Of a DNA stretch of 35,519 nucleotides, positions 16,397-35,422 are shown piece by piece. This DNA is from a virus. The number at the start of each line of letters is the position of its first letter. Within the stretch, counting starts at the first letter, position 1. The notes below the pieces were generated by a model. It saw nothing but the letters and a program-made list of their open reading frames with translations, did no database searches and was not told the origin of the DNA. Location of the stretch: positions 1-35,519 of IMG/VR virus record IMGVR_UViG_3300034374_007660, one strand, 5' to 3'. A program made the translations under genes and the position numbers.

Positions 16397-16435
16397 AAAA
16401 AAAAGGGGATGTTGCTGGATTGTGCCAGTATCCCC
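16397..16435 (-). terminator. Strong rho-independent terminator after hsp20
   Basis: Outer stem GGGGAT/ATCCCC (16405-16410 with 16430-16435), an inner CTGG/CCAG stem, then eight T residues on the minus strand. It lies 26 nt past the hsp20 stop. Confidence 0.9.
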
Positions 16436-21053: not shown

Positions 21054-21740
21054 TCAACTAAATGTGCTGTCGGGTTCAAGAGCAATATAATATTTGAGAT
21101 TATATGCTTCATTGGTAAATTGAGATAAGAGTTTGGATGAGACTACCACATCATAGGCACCAGGAATAATCTTGATATTTTCTACTTTAAAGTTAAAAGT
21201 AAAGTTCTTATCGGTTTCCCCAACAATAATAGAATATTCGTTAGATGTATCATTCTTCTTATCGCGCACAACAAGTTTGACAACACCCGCTTCTCCAACC
21301 GCTGAAAGATCGGGAAGTTGATACACTGCTGCTGCCTTGATAAGTTTTTCCAAAGTTACGCTATCAAGTTGAAAGCAAACATCCTGTGAGGGAAGTTGAA
21401 TCTCTTTATCTGGTGGAGAAATAATCACATTAGGATCGGCAAAGAAATACTTCACACGACGCTTACCCTCACGGATAGTCAAATAAGATTCTTCGGCAAA
21501 ATCAAGATCAGGATCCTGATGAAGACTCAAACCATTGAGAAACTGATTCAAATCATAGATGGCAAAGTCGCGAGAAAACTCTTCATTGATTTGCGCTTCG
21601 GCAAGAATATTCTTTGCCACAGAAATAGTGCGAAGTTTATTACCTTGCTTTACAAGAATCGAATTGTTGATACCAGCAAAGTTTTTGAGAGTCGTCAGAG
21701 TTTTTTCAGAAAGTTTCATAGTTTTTTCGCGGAGTTTCAT
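21054..21740 (-). CDS. 45: Sliding clamp (processivity factor), T4 gp45-like
   Basis: The trimeric clamp holds gp43 on DNA and also activates late transcription through gp55. The sequence follows T4 gp45: KLSEKTLTTLKNFAGINNSI, FAIYDLNQFLNGLSL, FNFKVENIKIIPGAYDVVVS, and an end in ALEPDSTFS. The ATG at 21740 overlaps the upstream stop as ATGA and gives 228 aa. A second ATG at 21719 lies at the point matching the T4 start and gives 221 aa. The two begin copies of an imperfect 21-nt tandem repeat. Either may be used. Confidence 0.93.
   Translation of the reverse strand: MKLREKTMKLSEKTLTTLKNFAGINNSILVKQGNKLRTISVAKNILAEAQINEEFSRDFAIYDLNQFLNGLSLHQDPDLDFAEESYLTIREGKRRVKYFFADPNVIISPPDKEIQLPSQDVCFQLDSVTLEKLIKAAAVYQLPDLSAVGEAGVVKLVVRDKKNDTSNEYSIIVGETDKNFTFNFKVENIKIIPGAYDVVVSSKLLSQFTNEAYNLKYYIALEPDSTFS
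21699..21740 (-). repeat. Imperfect 21-nt tandem repeat carrying two gp45 start codons
   Basis: Two adjacent copies (21740-21720 and 21719-21699) match at 17 of 21 positions and encode MKLREKT and MKLSEKT. The four differences are clustered in the centre. Confidence 0.8.
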
Positions 21741-22204
21741 TGTGGGTAAGAGCTGGTTTGCTTGTGAAGACCAGAAAAATGATAGAGAAGAACACAATAG
21801 TGAATTGCTTTCAGAATGTCAAGTTTTGACTTACCATTCTTCTTACCAAAACGCGAGAGGTATTTGATAGCATTAGATCGACAAAATGCTTCGGCATCCC
21901 CAATACTCTCAATCAAATCAAGAGTTTGTGTCTTCGACTCTTGAGAAGTATAGTGAGATTTATAAGTGCCAGATAGATAATCTTTAATTTCTTTTAGAGT
22001 TTTATCTTCTTCATATTTCCAAAACCCATTGTCGTTTTTAAGGTCTGCCATTGTTGCTCCAGTAATCGTATCCAAATTTACATCAATATCAACATCTTTA
22101 AAAGCTTCGGCAAAGTCAATATGTATTTCAGGAATTTTATCCAAATAGTGATCTGTTTTCATTTTCAAAACCTCATCGTAAAGTAGACTCCATGCGTTAA
22201 TCAT
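21737..22204 (-). CDS. DUF3310-domain protein
   Basis: The 155-aa protein ends in a section RSNAIKYLSRFGKKNGKSKL followed by DILKAIHYCVLLYHF, the signature I associate with DUF3310, found in phage proteins of unknown activity (sometimes called nucleotide-kinase-like without proof). The N-terminal half is acidic. I start at the ATG at 22204, 4 nt past the cobS stop; the longer frame to 22300 would run inside cobS. Confidence 0.75.
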   Translation of the reverse strand: MINAWSLLYDEVLKMKTDHYLDKIPEIHIDFAEAFKDVDIDVNLDTITGATMADLKNDNGFWKYEEDKTLKEIKDYLSGTYKSHYTSQESKTQTLDLIESIGDAEAFCRSNAIKYLSRFGKKNGKSKLDILKAIHYCVLLYHFSGLHKQTSSYPQ

Positions 22205-22208
22205 TCTA

Positions 22209-23300
22209 TCAATTTTGCTCCTGGTTGTCAACGGGCATTTGGAAATCAACATCCACCTTGTCATAAAGTTCCAAGAATGCTTGCTTGGTCTCATCGTCAA
22301 AACGATTCACACAAACTTGAATTGCCTTCGCTTTATCGGCAAAGATGCTGTAAGCACGAATGATGTGAACAAGACGGCGAGTGGAAATGATTTCCTCAAT
22401 ACCCCCATCATAGAAGGTCTTGCGGATAATATCTGCCCAATCGACAAGACGCTTACAGAAATCACGATCTTCAACACCAAGATCTAAGGCAATACCTTCA
22501 AGAATCTTTTGTTCGATAGCAGGGGAAGGATATTCTTGTTCGAAGGTGACAGGGAATCGCTCCAAGAATGCCTCATTGAGCACATTGGTTCCAATAAAGC
22601 GACCGTCATCGCTGCCTTTACCTTTAGTATTTGCAGTCGCAATAACATTGAACCCCTTTGTTGGATTGATAAACTTACCAATTTTTTTCAGAAACACACC
22701 TTTACCTTCAAGAATGGACTGAAGGCAGAGGATTTTATTGCTAGCAAGGTCAATTTCATCGAGTAGCAAGATTGCTCCTCGTTGGAGTGCTTCCACGACA
22801 GGTCCGTTATGCCAAACAGTTGCCCCATCGATAAGACGGAAACCACCAATAAGATCGTCTTCATCAGTCTCAATAGTAATATTTACACGAATCAACTCAC
22901 GACCAAGTTGAGAACAAGCTTGTTCTACGCTGAACGTTTTACCATTTCCAGATAGTCCAGTAATAAACGTTGGGTAGAAAAGGCGGGATTGAATAATCTT
23001 TTTAATATCACCAAAGTTGCCAAAGCGGACGAAAGTGTCATCTTTTTCAGGAATGAGGTTTTGTTCAACGGCAGGAAGAGCGGCAGGTGCCTGATAGTTG
23101 CGCTCAATCTCTTCTACCTTTTGAGGAGTGACTTCAAGATTCCACTTACCGCGACCAACCTTATATTGAGACAATTTGTTGGTCACGGTTTGATAGTTGG
23201 CACCGTTCATGGCACACCAGGCACGGATATCGCCGCTTGCCACAGACTCACCATATAGAGACTGCAAAGAGGTGCGGATGTAATCTGCGGAAAGAGACAT
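22209..23300 (-). CDS. cobS: CobS-like MoxR-type AAA+ ATPase
   Basis: The 363-aa protein is the one usually called CobS in cyanophages, after the ATPase of aerobic cobaltochelatase. Walker A is GLSGNGKT at 115-122, Walker B is LLLDEID at 178-184, and the sensor 1 region is VIATANTKGKG. The N-terminal 90 residues look like a helical adaptor domain. MoxR/CobS ATPases act with VWA partners to remodel a target or insert a metal; the zincin/VWA gene at 23751 is the obvious partner. Start ATG at 23300; a TTG at 23321 lies further up. The leader is only about 25 nt, without a clear ribosome binding site. Confidence 0.9.
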   Translation of the reverse strand: MSLSADYIRTSLQSLYGESVASGDIRAWCAMNGANYQTVTNKLSQYKVGRGKWNLEVTPQKVEEIERNYQAPAALPAVEQNLIPEKDDTFVRFGNFGDIKKIIQSRLFYPTFITGLSGNGKTFSVEQACSQLGRELIRVNITIETDEDDLIGGFRLIDGATVWHNGPVVEALQRGAILLLDEIDLASNKILCLQSILEGKGVFLKKIGKFINPTKGFNVIATANTKGKGSDDGRFIGTNVLNEAFLERFPVTFEQEYPSPAIEQKILEGIALDLGVEDRDFCKRLVDWADIIRKTFYDGGIEEIISTRRLVHIIRAYSIFADKAKAIQVCVNRFDDETKQAFLELYDKVDVDFQMPVDNQEQN

Positions 23301-23329
23301 GATGTAGGTTGGTTGTTTCAACTGAAGTT

Positions 23330-23335
23330 ATTATA
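23330..23335 (-). promoter_or_regulatory. TATAAT promoter for the cobS-gp45-gp44-regA operon
   Basis: Perfect TATAAT 30 nt upstream of the cobS ATG. The -35 region is occupied by GC-rich tandem repeats and has no TTGACA, which suggests a need for an activator. No other obvious promoter was found for the 6-kb operon. Confidence 0.6.
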
Positions 23336-23367
23336 GGGCAGAGTCGGGGCAGAGTGAGGGCAGAGTG
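23335..23367 (-). repeat. Three 11-bp tandem repeats at the cobS promoter
   Basis: Three consecutive 11-bp units (minus strand CACTCTGCCCT, CACTCTGCCCC, GACTCTGCCCT), each sharing ACTCTGCCC. The last base of the third unit is the first T of the TATAAT. The period is close to one DNA helical turn, as expected for binding sites on one face. The region is much richer in GC than its surroundings. Confidence 0.85.
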
Positions 23368-23370
23368 GAC

Positions 23371-23390
23371 GGTTTAGAAACTGTCCTACC
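23371..23390 (-). other. Small imperfect inverted repeat between two operons
   Basis: Around 23368-23387 the sequence ggacggttt/aaactgtcc forms an 8-of-9 inverted repeat separated by 2 nt, just after the 57-aa ORF stop. There is no U-run, so it is a poor terminator; it may be an mRNA end structure or operator. Confidence 0.3.
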
Positions 23391-23392
23391 TA

Positions 23393-23566
23393 TCATTTCC
23401 TACTTCTTCTTTTAGATCTAGTCGGAGCAGGTGCTTCTTCTACTACAGGCGCTTCTTCTACTACGGGAGCAGGTGCTTCTTCTACTACGGGAGCAGGTGC
23501 TTCTTCTACAACAGGTGTTGGAGCAGGAGCGCTTTTACCTCTGATCAAATCTCCAAATCTACTCAT
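23393..23566 (-). CDS. Pro/Ala/Val/Glu repeat miniprotein, 57 aa
   Basis: The product starts MSRFGDLIRGKSAPAP, has repeats of VVEEAPAP (three full copies of an 8-residue, 24-nt unit and one short copy), and ends in a basic tail PTRSKRRSRK. The ATG overlaps the upstream stop as ATGA. I recall longer cyanophage proteins with the same start and repeat, followed by a folded C-terminal domain. This one seems to have lost or never had that domain. Likely disordered linker protein; function unknown. Confidence 0.7.
   Translation of the reverse strand: MSRFGDLIRGKSAPAPTPVVEEAPAPVVEEAPAPVVEEAPVVEEAPAPTRSKRRSRK
23427..23525 (-). repeat. 24-nt coding tandem repeat
   Basis: The unit gcaggtgcttcttctactacggga recurs with few changes on the plus strand and encodes APAPVVEE-type units. 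One short copy lacks the APAP part. Slippage could change copy number without breaking the frame. Confidence 0.75.
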
Positions 23567-23754
23567 TTTCTCAAATACAATTCTTCTCTCTTATTTAGGA
23601 AATACTCTTTAGAAATAATCTTGAGATTATATCCCGGAAAATATTGCTTAGCAATAGCACCAACACCCATAGCGGTGATGGCACTATTGACAACAATCAA
23701 TACTTCTTTTGTTTCTTCTACAACTACGTGTTGAAGAGGAAAATTTTTATTCAT
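23563..23754 (-). CDS. Hypothetical protein, 63 aa
   Basis: A strand-rich start (VVVEETKEVLIVVNS), a small-residue stretch AITAMGVGAIAKQYFPGY, then NLKIISKEYFLNKREEL. Overlaps both neighbours by ATGA. The central segment is hydrophobic but short. Function unknown. Confidence 0.63.
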   Translation of the reverse strand: MNKNFPLQHVVVEETKEVLIVVNSAITAMGVGAIAKQYFPGYNLKIISKEYFLNKREELYLRK

Positions 23755-25829
23755 ACAACTAGATTGATAAATTCTGAAAGGATTTTTTTATTCATTTTTT
23801 TGCCCTTCAAGCTCTTGACAAATGCTTTTTTGATTTGAGTTTTGGTAGCATCTTCTTCAACATCAAATTCAGAAGAACTTGACATTACAGAAGAAGAAAG
23901 GGCAAAGTAGCTATGATAACCGGCATTCTTGAGTACAAATGTCTTTTCTTTTCTCCAGTCTTTCATAGTATTTTCCAAAAGTTCTGGACTTGTTTGACAA
24001 TGGCGACGAATGAATGTTCCAGCATCAGAACCATTATTTAGCACACGAATACCAATAAAGTTAGTGTCTTTGAAATTGTCACGAAGATTGCGAAGAAGCA
24101 CACCCGTAAACTCATCATATCGATTAGTAAGCGTATAAGTTGTGCCCAATTTACGATCACGAAGGAAACAATCTTCTCCAACATAAATGCAACCCAGGTA
24201 AGGTTTGTCATAACGAGAAACTTCCTTATGAAACTTCAAAGGATTTGCCTCGCCATCGGTAAGAATTACACACTGAACTTTTTGAAGAGAATGTTGCTTC
24301 TTAAATTGAGGAATAATTTGATGAAGAGCAATCAGTGTTTCATTTAAAGGAGTGCCAGAAAGATGCATACCACTCGGAATAGAATAATTACAATAGTGAG
24401 CAAAAGAATGAACAATACGATAGATATTGAGCATACTCTCTTCCAATGTCTTGGCATTGACATTACTGGTAAGAATATTCATAAGTGAAAACCACTCACC
24501 AACAGCAATTACTCCATTCTTTTTTTCATAGGCACGTTCGCGAATATTTGCCACACCATTCTCATCATGAACAACATAAGGATATTCGGAAGTAAAGGCA
24601 TAAACATCAAAAGGAATATTTACTTTACGACAGAACCAAATAAGATTAAAGAGTTGTTTGATAGTATCTTCCAAGACATACTGCATTGAACCAGACCAAT
24701 CCAGAATGAAGATAAGACCATGATTCTTACCATCTGCAAAGGTAGTTACTTTTTTGAACAGGTCTTCGTTATATCGGTAAGTGTGAAGGTTAGAGCAATC
24801 TAAGACTCCAGTACGGCTAGTAGTGGCACGAGCATAACTATCAGCAGATTTTCGACATTCAAATTCTTTGACAAGATAATTCACCTCCTTTTGAGCAGAG
24901 CGTTTGAACTCTTTATATTTGCTATCGACATCCCCAAATAAATCAAGATCAGGAGTAGCGTCATCCCAATGATTATTGATTAACTCATGAATTTCTGAAT
25001 TTGGAATAACACATTTTTTTAAATCAAGTTTAGGAATTTCAATATAATTACTCTCACGACTAAACATATCCACCAGGTTTTTGAGACCCTTTTCAAGGGA
25101 CTTCATGGTTTCAACTTCTGGATCTGGATTTGATGCTTCTTTGTTATCTTCTTTTTTCTGCTCAACATTTCCACCACCTTCGGTAGGACCATCACTCTCT
25201 GTCATATCTGGTTGATCATTCTCACCAGTCTGTGTTTCATCAGTATGAGTTTCTTGTTGCTGATGCTGATCAGTCTTGGGAATCTGTTTCTTACAGTAAT
25301 TATAAAGAGCCTCTGCTGCTATAAGAACATCCTCAAAATCTTCACAACCTTCGACCATACGAACTATTGCTTTTTCAATCTCCGTAAACTTAACATTAAT
25401 AAAATTTCCAATCTTGAAGTGAAGATTGATACGATCGGCAAGATTCATCTTCTCAAGATCTTCACCTTCAAGACAGAAGAAGTCTTGGTCAGAAAGTTCT
25501 TTATATCCTTTATAGAAAGTCTTGGCAAGACCCATATAACGACGCTTCATCAGTTTTTCGATGCGAACATCCTCTACCACATTCACAAACTGCGGAGGTG
25601 CTTTGCATTGCTTTGTCCAGTCCTCATCAGGCGTATAGAGGGCATGACCTACCTCATGACCGACAAGCATATCATACACAGTCGAACTCGCTTTCTCCCA
25701 CATAGGAAGCGTTAGAACGCGAGTGTGAACATTAAAACAAGCAGTCTCTACTTTCTTGTGCTCAACCACAAGATCTTCGGTGGCAAGAAGTTTGGCAAGT
25801 TGAGACTTGATTTCGTGATTGACTGCCAT
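23751..25829 (-). CDS. CobT-like protein: zincin motif plus VWA domain
   Basis: The 692-aa protein has a metalloprotease-type HEVGH at 58-62 with a possible third ligand in NVVEDVRIEKL (residues 83-93). An acidic, Gln/Glu-rich linker covers about 186-240. A VWA domain has the metal-ion-dependent adhesion motif DWSGSM at 377-382 and later TDGEANP. CobT of cobaltochelatase and MoxR-partner VWA proteins have the same VWA placement. With the CobS-like ATPase 0.5 kb downstream it likely forms an ATPase/VWA machine. Whether it cuts protein or handles metal is not shown. The ATG at 25829 begins MAVNHEIKSQL; the longer frame starts only at a TTG. Confidence 0.87.
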   Translation of the reverse strand: MAVNHEIKSQLAKLLATEDLVVEHKKVETACFNVHTRVLTLPMWEKASSTVYDMLVGHEVGHALYTPDEDWTKQCKAPPQFVNVVEDVRIEKLMKRRYMGLAKTFYKGYKELSDQDFFCLEGEDLEKMNLADRINLHFKIGNFINVKFTEIEKAIVRMVEGCEDFEDVLIAAEALYNYCKKQIPKTDQHQQQETHTDETQTGENDQPDMTESDGPTEGGGNVEQKKEDNKEASNPDPEVETMKSLEKGLKNLVDMFSRESNYIEIPKLDLKKCVIPNSEIHELINNHWDDATPDLDLFGDVDSKYKEFKRSAQKEVNYLVKEFECRKSADSYARATTSRTGVLDCSNLHTYRYNEDLFKKVTTFADGKNHGLIFILDWSGSMQYVLEDTIKQLFNLIWFCRKVNIPFDVYAFTSEYPYVVHDENGVANIRERAYEKKNGVIAVGEWFSLMNILTSNVNAKTLEESMLNIYRIVHSFAHYCNYSIPSGMHLSGTPLNETLIALHQIIPQFKKQHSLQKVQCVILTDGEANPLKFHKEVSRYDKPYLGCIYVGEDCFLRDRKLGTTYTLTNRYDEFTGVLLRNLRDNFKDTNFIGIRVLNNGSDAGTFIRRHCQTSPELLENTMKDWRKEKTFVLKNAGYHSYFALSSSVMSSSSEFDVEEDATKTQIKKAFVKSLKGKKMNKKILSEFINLVV

Positions 25830-25850
25830 TGATCCGTTGCGTATGGACCT

Positions 25851-25856
25851 ATTATA
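25851..25856 (-). promoter_or_regulatory. TATAAT promoter for the zincin/VWA gene
   Basis: Perfect TATAAT 22 nt upstream of the ATG at 25829, one base after the U-run of the preceding terminator. No -35 can be recognised because the hairpin occupies that place. Confidence 0.6.
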
Positions 25857-25857
25857 C

Positions 25858-25885
25858 AAAAAAAAGAGGGTGGTGAGACCCTCTT
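25858..25885 (-). terminator. Rho-independent terminator after the late 185-aa gene
   Basis: Stem AAGAGGGT/ACCCTCTT (25864-25871 with 25878-25885), 6-nt loop, followed by six or more T residues on the minus strand. It begins 28 nt past the gene stop. Confidence 0.9.
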
Positions 25886-26470: not shown

Positions 26471-26490
26471 CTTACGAAATACTTTTTAGT

Positions 26491-26498
26491 TATTTATA
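26491..26498 (-). promoter_or_regulatory. T4-type late promoter TATAAATA
   Basis: Exact TATAAATA 21 nt upstream of the ATG at 26470. The first T is the end of the U-run of the terminator at 26498-26523. Confidence 0.82.
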
Positions 26499-26523
26499 AA
26501 AAAAAGGAAGTCAAAAGACTTCC
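26498..26523 (-). terminator. Rho-independent terminator after the 56-aa ORF
   Basis: Perfect 7-bp stem GGAAGTC/GACTTCC (26506-26512 with 26517-26523), 4-nt loop, followed by eight T residues on the minus strand. Confidence 0.88.
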
Positions 26524-26548
26524 CAGGTGGACACTTTTTAAACTGGAC

Positions 26549-33182: not shown

Positions 33183-33198
33183 ATTATAAGTATTTATT
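33183..33198 (-). promoter_or_regulatory. Possible overlapping late-variant and TATAAT signals before uvsW
   Basis: AATAAATA (33198-33191), 7 of 8 to the late consensus, and TATAAT (33188-33183) lie 24 and 16 nt upstream of the ATG at 33167. T4 uvsW is a late gene, so the first is the more likely if either is used. Confidence 0.4.
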
Positions 33199-33202
33199 GG
33201 GG

Positions 33203-35422
33203 TTAGTTTGGATAACCTTGCTGTTCTCCGGCAGCGTCCATTCTCTGTCTAGTGTCTGCTCTTTCTGCTTCCGTTCTTTCTCTTTTTCTTTTCTTTGGTT
33301 TAATCTGAACTTCTTGTGGTTGTTGGGGTTGAACTTCTTGTGGTTGTTGGGGTTGAACTTCTTGAGGTTGTTGTGCTTGTTGTGGTTGTTGTGCTTGTTG
33401 TGCTTGTTGAGGTTGTTGAGTTCTTGCAGATTTTTTAATTTGTTGCAAACGCTGCAAACTTCGCTGATGTTTTGATGATGCAGTATCATAATTACTTTGA
33501 GCTGTTGCCAAAGTATTCTGTGCTTGTTGTCTTATTTGATTGTTTGCTTGTGCAATAGGAGAAGTGGGATCCGTTGCAATATGAACCTCTACATTTTTTC
33601 TATGCTGCCTTAATATTGGTTCTCCAGTTTCTGGATTTATGGGAATAGATGCATTTTGCGCATTTACACTTGCTACTTCTAGATCTCTTTCAGTATCAAA
33701 GAATGCTTGTTGTGTTTGTTGCGCCTTTCGTGCAGCATATCTTGCCCGTCTTTCTGCTGCCTGCCTCTCTATCCTTTCTTGTTTTACTGCCTCTCTTTCT
33801 GCTGCTAACCTTTCATCTCTTTCCCTACCAACTCCTTTTGATCTCAATTCGGCAGTTCTTGCTTGTCTATTAAACGTATCCAAGGTCATTGGTCCTTGTT
33901 GTGGTTGTGCTTGATTATCTGGTTTATCTGCATCAGGTTTTGCTGGCCCAACTCTTCCTGCTAAAGCACCAGATCTTTGTATCCTTTGTGGTTCTTCTCC
34001 TCTACGTCTCATTTCAGATGCACGGTATCCATCCTCTGTTTTGCTACTTTTACCCTTTCCAGATCTAGGAGTAAGAGGTTGGTCCAGATCTGCCCTTTGA
34101 GATACTGGTTCAGATTTTGCTCTACTAACAACTTCACCCGTCTTAGGATCTACATAAGTTCCCCTAACAACTTCAGTTGCCTGCCCAGATGGGGAAGACT
34201 TAAGGAAATCTGAGAGAGATTTCATAGTTGGATACTTTGAAAGAATACCTTCAATTCGTTCTCTTTGTCCCTTTTTTAAATCACTTACATCAATTCTTTT
34301 TGTCAATAGTTTATAAGCTTTTTCATATTCTTTTCTTTTTGGATCATCTCTATCCATACCCATATAATCTATCTTAAGTTGTTTTGGATTATTTTTATAT
34401 TTTTTACTATCGGCAATTTTTTTAATTGCTCCAAGTTCACCTACTTCCAAATCTGACTTATCAATTTTATCATTTGGACTTCCTTTACCCCTCAAAAGTC
34501 TCATTGCAGTTAATGCATCTTTAAATTCTTGACTTTCTGGATCTAACTGAGCAGAAACTTCTTTCCCGAATTTTTGTTCACCACCAGCAGCTTCTTTATC
34601 AACTAATCTATCAAATCCGGGATAATTTTTAACAAGAGCATCAACTGCAGATTGAGCAATTGATAATCTTTTCTCACTCTTTTCTTTATTTTCTGTTGGA
34701 CTAATTTTTAAATTCTGTGCTCTAACATATTTTGATATATTAGATTCTAAGTCTGCCTCAAATTTTTTAATTTCTTCCTTTGAGGCACCATCTTTTTTCA
34801 GTTTTTGAATATATTTTTTAGCAGCAGCTTTGAATAATCCTCTAACTTCTTCTGGTTCGGCAGATAGAGTTTGTGATCCTTCTCCCTGCTTTAAACTAAT
34901 TCCTTGTCCAAATTTTTTATCTTTTGTGTCTGCGATAGAAATATCTCTTTTTGATGTATCTGCTTCTTTTCCAACTACATCTTTCCACATTCTTGTAGTG
35001 GGTGGAGTTGCTCCACCTTCAACTTTAGCATAAGCAGTTGATCTATTAGCAGCAGATTTTCCTCTTCTTCCTTTTGTATATGCTACAACACTATCTGGTG
35101 CCAATTTCAATTCGTCATAGTATGTTGATTGACTTTGACTTGCATTAGTATCTTTTCCCTTTTCAAATCCCCGTTTTGCCTTTGCAAAACTTAATGGATG
35201 TTTAGGATCTTGTCTAGCAGCATCAATTTCTTTCTCCATTGCTTGTCTAGCATCATCATATTTTCCAGCATTAATAAGATCTCTTATTTCTCTGCCGTAT
35301 TTTCTATGAGTAATAAAGTGATTCCATACTTTTCTGAATGCATGTTCATCACTATATTTTCCCTCAAATAAAAGGAAACCATATCTATAACATTCAAATA
35401 TAAAATCTCCGAAAGACTTCAT
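33203..35422 (-). CDS. Large probable internal-head protein with Gln-rich C-terminus
   Basis: The 739-aa protein begins MKSFGDFIFECYRYGFLLFE, similar in shape to T4 capsid-targeting sequences; FIFE at 7-10 and LLFE-G at 17-21 are possible gp21 cleavage points. Residues about 155-200 (DTSKRDISI, ISLKQGEGSQTLSAEPEEVR) recall nuclease-fold cores with D160 and K178 in the xD...xxK position. The middle is helical and Lys-rich. A basic Arg/Ala/Glu coiled coil covers about 520-590. The end is a QEVQPQQP repeat followed by KKRKRERTEAERAD. A late-promoter variant lies 28 nt upstream. Head location and nuclease activity are inferences. Confidence 0.72.
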   Translation of the reverse strand: MKSFGDFIFECYRYGFLLFEGKYSDEHAFRKVWNHFITHRKYGREIRDLINAGKYDDARQAMEKEIDAARQDPKHPLSFAKAKRGFEKGKDTNASQSQSTYYDELKLAPDSVVAYTKGRRGKSAANRSTAYAKVEGGATPPTTRMWKDVVGKEADTSKRDISIADTKDKKFGQGISLKQGEGSQTLSAEPEEVRGLFKAAAKKYIQKLKKDGASKEEIKKFEADLESNISKYVRAQNLKISPTENKEKSEKRLSIAQSAVDALVKNYPGFDRLVDKEAAGGEQKFGKEVSAQLDPESQEFKDALTAMRLLRGKGSPNDKIDKSDLEVGELGAIKKIADSKKYKNNPKQLKIDYMGMDRDDPKRKEYEKAYKLLTKRIDVSDLKKGQRERIEGILSKYPTMKSLSDFLKSSPSGQATEVVRGTYVDPKTGEVVSRAKSEPVSQRADLDQPLTPRSGKGKSSKTEDGYRASEMRRRGEEPQRIQRSGALAGRVGPAKPDADKPDNQAQPQQGPMTLDTFNRQARTAELRSKGVGRERDERLAAEREAVKQERIERQAAERRARYAARKAQQTQQAFFDTERDLEVASVNAQNASIPINPETGEPILRQHRKNVEVHIATDPTSPIAQANNQIRQQAQNTLATAQSNYDTASSKHQRSLQRLQQIKKSARTQQPQQAQQAQQPQQAQQPQEVQPQQPQEVQPQQPQEVQIKPKKRKRERTEAERADTRQRMDAAGEQQGYPN
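33307..33420 (-). repeat. 24-nt coding tandem repeats, Gln/Pro-rich
   Basis: Units gaacttcttgtggttgttggggtt at 33307-33330 and 33331-33354 are identical; a third at 33355-33378 differs at three bases. They are followed by shorter gttgtgctt-type repeats to 33420. They encode QEVQPQQP and QQAQQ units. Confidence 0.9.

Follow-up and report, generated by a model that had tools for sequence, protein, structure and literature searches.

A triple repeat abutting the -10 element of a cyanophage replication-operon promoter: a candidate operator within a widespread viral promoter module

The promoter in front of cobS in a T4-like cyanophage carries three direct repeats at 11-bp pitch, and we lean toward the reading that this array is a triple operator lying over a sigma-70-type promoter core and read by a putative sequence-specific DNA-binding protein. 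The array is a strongly conserved control element, probably a row of docking sites for a regulator, and it belongs to a promoter module that is widespread among viruses rather than being a local curiosity. Unit 3 abuts the -10 element, unit 2 lies over the -35 position, and unit 1 sits between unit 2 and a palindromic box. We found this arrangement, the unit sequence and the number of units to be conserved across many phages and in front of different genes.

The array in the window

The window, by which we mean the whole stretch of DNA analyzed, is a 35,519-bp viral record and is a fragment of a T4-like marine cyanophage. Its minus strand carries three exact copies of the 9-bp core ACTCTGCCC at a pitch of 11 bp, directly abutting TATAAT. 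In minus-strand order the region is GGACAGTTTCTAAACCGTCC-ACTCTGCCC-TC-ACTCTGCCC-CG-ACTCTGCCC-TATAAT-AACTTCAGTTGAAAC...ATG. The elements of the promoter, as read from the sequence, and the neighboring genes are as follows.

21054..21797, minus strand: sliding clamp, T4 gp45-like, downstream of cobS in the same direction (PHROG 223, E 3.1e-85)
22209..23300, minus strand: cobS, a MoxR/CobS-type AAA+ ATPase of 363 aa, first gene of the operon (PHROG 249, E 1.2e-137)
23301..23329, minus strand: leader AACTTCAGTTGAAAC..., conserved at homologous cobS promoters
23330..23335, minus strand: -10 element TATAAT
23336..23344, minus strand: repeat unit 3, ACTCTGCCC, adjoining the -10
23347..23355, minus strand: repeat unit 2, ACTCTGCCC
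23358..23366, minus strand: repeat unit 1, ACTCTGCCC
23367..23386, minus strand: palindromic box GGACAGTTTCTAAACCGTCC
23374-23367, minus strand: conserved right half of the palindromic box, AACCGTCC
23393-23566, minus strand: ORF of a 57-residue repeat protein (MSRFGDLIRGKSAPAPTPVVEEAPAPVVEEAPAP...), upstream of the array
23751-25859: peptidase gene, upstream of the array

The array is real. Tandem Repeats Finder recovered it independently (23335-23367, period 11, 3.0 copies), and in none of 300 shuffles of the window did any 9-mer occur three times at 11-bp spacing. The initial annotation had described three exact 11-bp units ending in the TATAAT. The array and the adjoining TATAAT stand, but exact repetition is limited to the 9-bp core: the 11-mers CACTCTGCCCT, CACTCTGCCCC and GACTCTGCCCT differ at their ends, and the final T assigned to the repeat belongs to TATAAT. 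No second ACTCTGCCC array was found elsewhere in the window, in agreement with the earlier remark that the other promoters here lack one. Judging by the spacing, transcription would start near 23323, and cobS begins with an ATG at 23300. The gene order downstream is cobS, a kinase-like ORF and the sliding clamp gp45, which makes "replication operon" a fair label. The 57-residue ORF, which has the peptidase gene on one side and the cobS promoter on the other, carries tandem VVEEAPAP repeats of its own, with Tandem Repeats Finder arrays at 23424-23517. Nested tandem repeats of 9, 18 and 24 bp also occur at 33306-33420, inside overlapping ORFs at 33184-35422.

Distribution of the module among viruses

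Using the array region alone as the blastn query, we found the cassette directly before cobS in S-CAM4 and S-CAM3, before unrelated (non-cobS) genes in S-SCSM1 and Syn9, and similar matches in ACG-2014e/j and Sf-CH11. Whole-genome scans detected a single array in each of S-CAM4, S-CAM3, S-SCSM1 and Sf-CH11, a pair in Syn9 (44796-44826 at gp61 and 49100-49130 at gp75) of which one is diverged, and only a partial array in S-PM2; the scans did not find the array in P-TIM40, Syn19, P-HM2 or T4. The initial annotation would have been refuted had every relative with this operon lacked the repeats; arrays are in fact found in such relatives.

In IMG/VR, more than 100 distinct promoters share one design, consisting of a palindromic box, three units and a -10 after 0-1 bp, and the cultured cyanophages S-CAM3, S-CAM4, S-SCSM1, Sf-CH11 and Syn9 have it too. 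An exact two-unit pattern that did not demand a promoter matched 65 stretches of viral contigs, nearly all of which are three-unit promoters aimed at a -10, and a looser pattern that included the -10 matched at least 120. After removal of duplicates and chance hits, 92 distinct modules among the matches listed were aligned. The element is practically confined to viruses, because the strict pattern, run against 85,000 species of bacteria and archaea, gave a single chance-like match in a contig context unlike the module. Short matches to the repeat sequence were also seen at 8 places in Pseudomonas phage PV565005.1, under hypothetical proteins.

Unit number, spacing and constraint

Among the matches listed, unit 1 is exact in 64 of the 92 homologous modules and within two mismatches in 86; the looser pattern did not demand this unit, and most of the 92 modules were collected by patterns without it. 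The collecting patterns required CTGCCC in units 2 and 3, and conservation there is therefore inflated. The spacings between units are chiefly 12+10, 11+11 or 12+11 (74 of 92 modules among the matches listed), the window having 11+11. Unit 3 is separated from the -10 by 0 bp in 75 modules and by 1 bp in 17, the pattern permitting only 0-1.

We also counted sites over the pooled loci of all searches, some of which had first been retrieved by a stricter pattern: 131 distinct sites had one exact unit abutting TATANT, and 104 distinct sites were found when units 1 and 3 were demanded and the middle unit and the -10 were left free. Among the 131, three units were present at 105, two units at 2 and one unit at 23, and one site was scored as having four. 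The lone four-unit score reflects a weak extra match, and the 23 single-unit sites are mostly chance matches. The middle unit was within two mismatches in 96 of the 104 pairs of units 1 and 3, and TATANT followed at 0-2 nt in 88 of them with no -10 demanded. The copy number is fixed at three. The initial annotation had offered a promoter switch working through change in copy number, and this finds no support, because 105 of 108 multi-unit promoters have three units, inside a slot of nearly fixed length.

A few loci depart from the common layout. One (L375:7319-7333) has just one unit between the box AGTGTCC and the -10; with the box intact, it may be a contraction of the array or an assembly collapse. 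In two others (L220 and L273), an inverted unit 1 creates the near-perfect palindrome GGGCAGAGTcACTCTGCCC, after which come a single direct unit and the -10; a third (L266) has the same palindrome with one change. At L437 and L030, arrays lie directly before, not after, the start of a palindromic box (CTGTGCCAGTT...).

At array-bearing cobS promoters the unit positions differ by 0.08-0.12 per site at any distance, whereas the fourfold sites of cobS between the genes of these promoters show 0.25-0.57 differences, far above the units, a comparison in which the conservation of units 2 and 3 is partly due to the search patterns. The unit sequence ACTCTGCCC is unchanged even in phages whose CobS identity is only 60-70%. 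When nine cyanophage genomes and T4 were searched for a triple repeat of another sequence abutting a -10, one AT-rich chance match was obtained, and this lack of other triple repeats points to one specific putative recogniser.

The core promoter and the proposed regulator

The initial annotation had placed the array where a -35 box would stand. The position holds, but the array is not a simple stand-in for a -35, for the junction of the linker and unit 2 forms CTGACT or TTGACT in 47 of the 92 modules, mostly 16-17 bp from the -10. The linker between units 1 and 2 ends in G in about 70 of the 92 modules and that between units 2 and 3 in only about 9, an asymmetry that is expected if unit 2 doubles as the -35 and that suggests selection for a -35 at this unit. 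The hexamer in the window is CTCACT, which matches at 3 of 6 positions, and its -10 is perfect. Relatives match at 4 or more of the 6 positions in 57 of 92 cases, although control offsets also score often, not far below. Several framework promoters without an array have TTGAAA, TTGATC or TTGACA at the -35 place. Because about half of the relatives have YTGACT at unit 2, the array appears to overlie a sigma-70 core promoter rather than to replace it.

In the operator reading that we prefer, a sequence-specific protein would bind the units head to tail on one face of the DNA. The earlier proposal of promoter-linked recognition sites at one-turn spacing is supported by these results, and cooperative binding by a regulator is plausible. 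Because the unit sequence is constant between phages and no substitute sequence takes its place, one conserved factor would be likelier than a phage-specific one; a binder conserved across infections would come from the host or be one of the core proteins of the phages. With the -35 and the spacer both covered by the sites, our first choice of effect is occlusion, in which the bound protein would compete with RNA polymerase and thereby keep the replication operon promoter low or set its timing. Next in likelihood would be activation by direct contact. As for the upstream palindromic box, it would be a distinct site of activator type that serves this promoter class more generally. Against the operator reading, a host regulator would need different or looser sites at home, because the strict search of host genomes found no host use. 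A presence/absence comparison of five array-bearing with four array-lacking genomes yielded mostly short or antisense ORFs and no convincing candidate for the regulator gene.

We considered whether an activator of the Pho or OmpR type could instead sit on the array, recruit RNA polymerase and make up for a weak -35. Regulators of the OmpR/PhoB class bind 11-bp repeats, often three, cooperatively (PMC3798270), and cyanobacterial SphR uses at least three 8-bp repeats, its box being CTTAACCT three times (PMC1906773). The array resembles sites of this family (the ArcA box, Pho box and SphR box) in having units of 8-10 bp at a centre-to-centre distance of 11 bp, which often number three and stand near the core promoter; such direct repeats are a hallmark of the family (PMC3798270, PMC1906773), and the poor CTCACT of the window also speaks for an activator. 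However, the Pho boxes of E. coli stand upstream of the -10 at a distance of 10 bp (PMC1906773), whereas unit 3 abuts the -10, the polymerase's own seat, and about half of the relatives retain a -35-like hexamer. We regard an activator of this kind as rather unlikely. The unit ACTCTGCCC is also unrelated to the SphR box CTTAACCT and to the E. coli Pho box (consensus in PMC1906773), the OmpR/PhoB sites at activated promoters stand about 10 bp upstream of the -10, and, unlike theirs, the number of units is fixed at three and the strict search finds none in host chromosomes. The class may serve as the closest working analogue of the array; we do not claim membership, because the array differs both in its sequence and in where it stands relative to the -10.

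A promoter frame with exchangeable fillings

The palindromic box upstream of the array has the consensus GTGnCAnTT-N4-AAnTGnCAC and often spans the stop codon of the preceding gene. Over all collected loci, a box followed by a -10 at 15-45 bp was found in 46 cases, 44 of which have the two at 28-30 bp, and a reversed-sequence control gave 4 scattered cases. The array is thus one filling of a general cyanophage promoter frame, because 29 of these 44 promoters lack it and 15 carry it. The strict cases without an array that come from Syn9 and S-SCSM1 are found chiefly among small ORFs. Genome-wide, the framework is clear in its strict version and only modestly in excess of shuffles with a loose weight matrix; because of this modest excess, the number of framed promoters per genome is uncertain.

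A search with tblastn gave 598 cobS relatives among IMG/VR stretches. The slot could be scored at 132 cobS promoters (24 further ones were not scorable) and held the array in 65, a terminator hairpin with a T tract in 47, another hairpin in 7 and something else in 13, counts in which the ratio of array to terminator is not a frequency because many array loci were retrieved by the array pattern. Mapped onto a maximum-likelihood tree of 101 CobS proteins, the presence or absence of the array changes in 17 steps, of which well-supported branches force at least 12; the number is slightly high because two array-like loci were scored otherwise, L266 as "hairpin" and L173 as "other". We tentatively suggest, as a possibility and no firmer, that the nearly fixed-length slot between the box and the -10 is swapped among phages and is filled either by a terminator or by an invariant triple operator, with one conserved factor present in all infections, and that control of the replication genes is rewired by fillings of about 30 bp. 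The exchange of terminator and triple array at one promoter is a clear natural example of modular promoter evolution.

The swap of array and terminator in one slot could also count against the operator reading, if the slot serves insulation instead of control of initiation. The array would then be a protein-dependent roadblock that replaces an intrinsic terminator and stops read-through from the upstream gene, which is in keeping with both the contents of the scorable cobS slots and the repeated exchanges on the CobS tree. Nevertheless, the array has no hairpin or U tract, and at the window array we found neither the GC-rich hairpin nor the following T run of an intrinsic terminator. The units also lie across the -35 position in strict register with the -10, and in many promoters of the box class the slot contains neither array nor terminator. 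We regard insulation as unlikely.

Two structural candidates were rejected. RNA structure of the array is rejected, since RNA and DNA folding of the array region showed no fold beyond that of shuffles. A G-quadruplex on the complementary strand is a weak candidate, as the window array has only three runs of three or more G with loops of 7-8 bases and the non-G unit positions are equally conserved. A Rho-type site is likewise an improbable candidate, as cyanobacteria are generally considered to be without Rho.

It is highly improbable that the units are iterons of a replication origin beside the replication-operon promoter, usually one set per genome. The single arrays of four cultured phages, the two in Syn9 and the place of the window array at the replication operon are in favor, but arrays stand at different genes in different phages and off the GC-skew extremes in five genomes (skew being a weak guide in these phages), several phages have none, and iterons have no need of a rigid lock to the -10. 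Slippage does produce short tandem repeats, but a functionless chance or slipped-strand repeat can be dismissed in view of the shuffles and of a sequence, number and position common to more than 100 promoters under strong constraint.

Relation to known phage elements

T4 middle promoters have one MotA box near the -35 position and a host-type -10, and stand at replication genes. The array is like them in its phage-specific element near the -35, its host-type -10 and its association with replication genes, and unlike them in having three repeats instead of one MotA box. According to a review (PMC2984593), cyanomyoviruses have no homologues of motA or asiA, and how their early and middle genes are controlled is unclear. 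T4-like cyanophages are abundant ocean viruses that thus lack the T4 middle-promoter factors and whose gene timing is not settled, and a virus-specific, strictly built module before cobS and replication genes would offer an exact DNA bait for the missing regulator.

Doron et al. in 2016 reportedly described a novel early regulatory element in the cyanophages Syn9 and P-TIM40. The palindromic box could be that element; Syn9 and S-SCSM1 have it in their small-ORF regions, and P-HM2 and P-TIM40 have similar sites. The triple array, in contrast to the Syn9 early element, is present once or twice per genome and alone cannot control all early genes. The 2016 account may cover the palindromic box or even the array, which is the main uncertainty on novelty; our literature search, which had the 2016 Syn9 transcriptome study outside its reach, found no description of ACTCTGCCC arrays.

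The window contains two further sites related to the box, both on the minus strand. At 26480-26540, a palindromic box (AAGTGTCCAC from 26536) is followed by a slot with a terminator-like hairpin and T run and then by TATAAATA, the late promoter sequence of the T4 type, and the site appears to be a hybrid that combines the frame with such a promoter. At 16431, a box-like ATACTGGCAC precedes a slot ending in CCCCTTTTTTTTATGC, with TATAAT 29 bp away, and this site is possibly a terminator-filled version of the frame.
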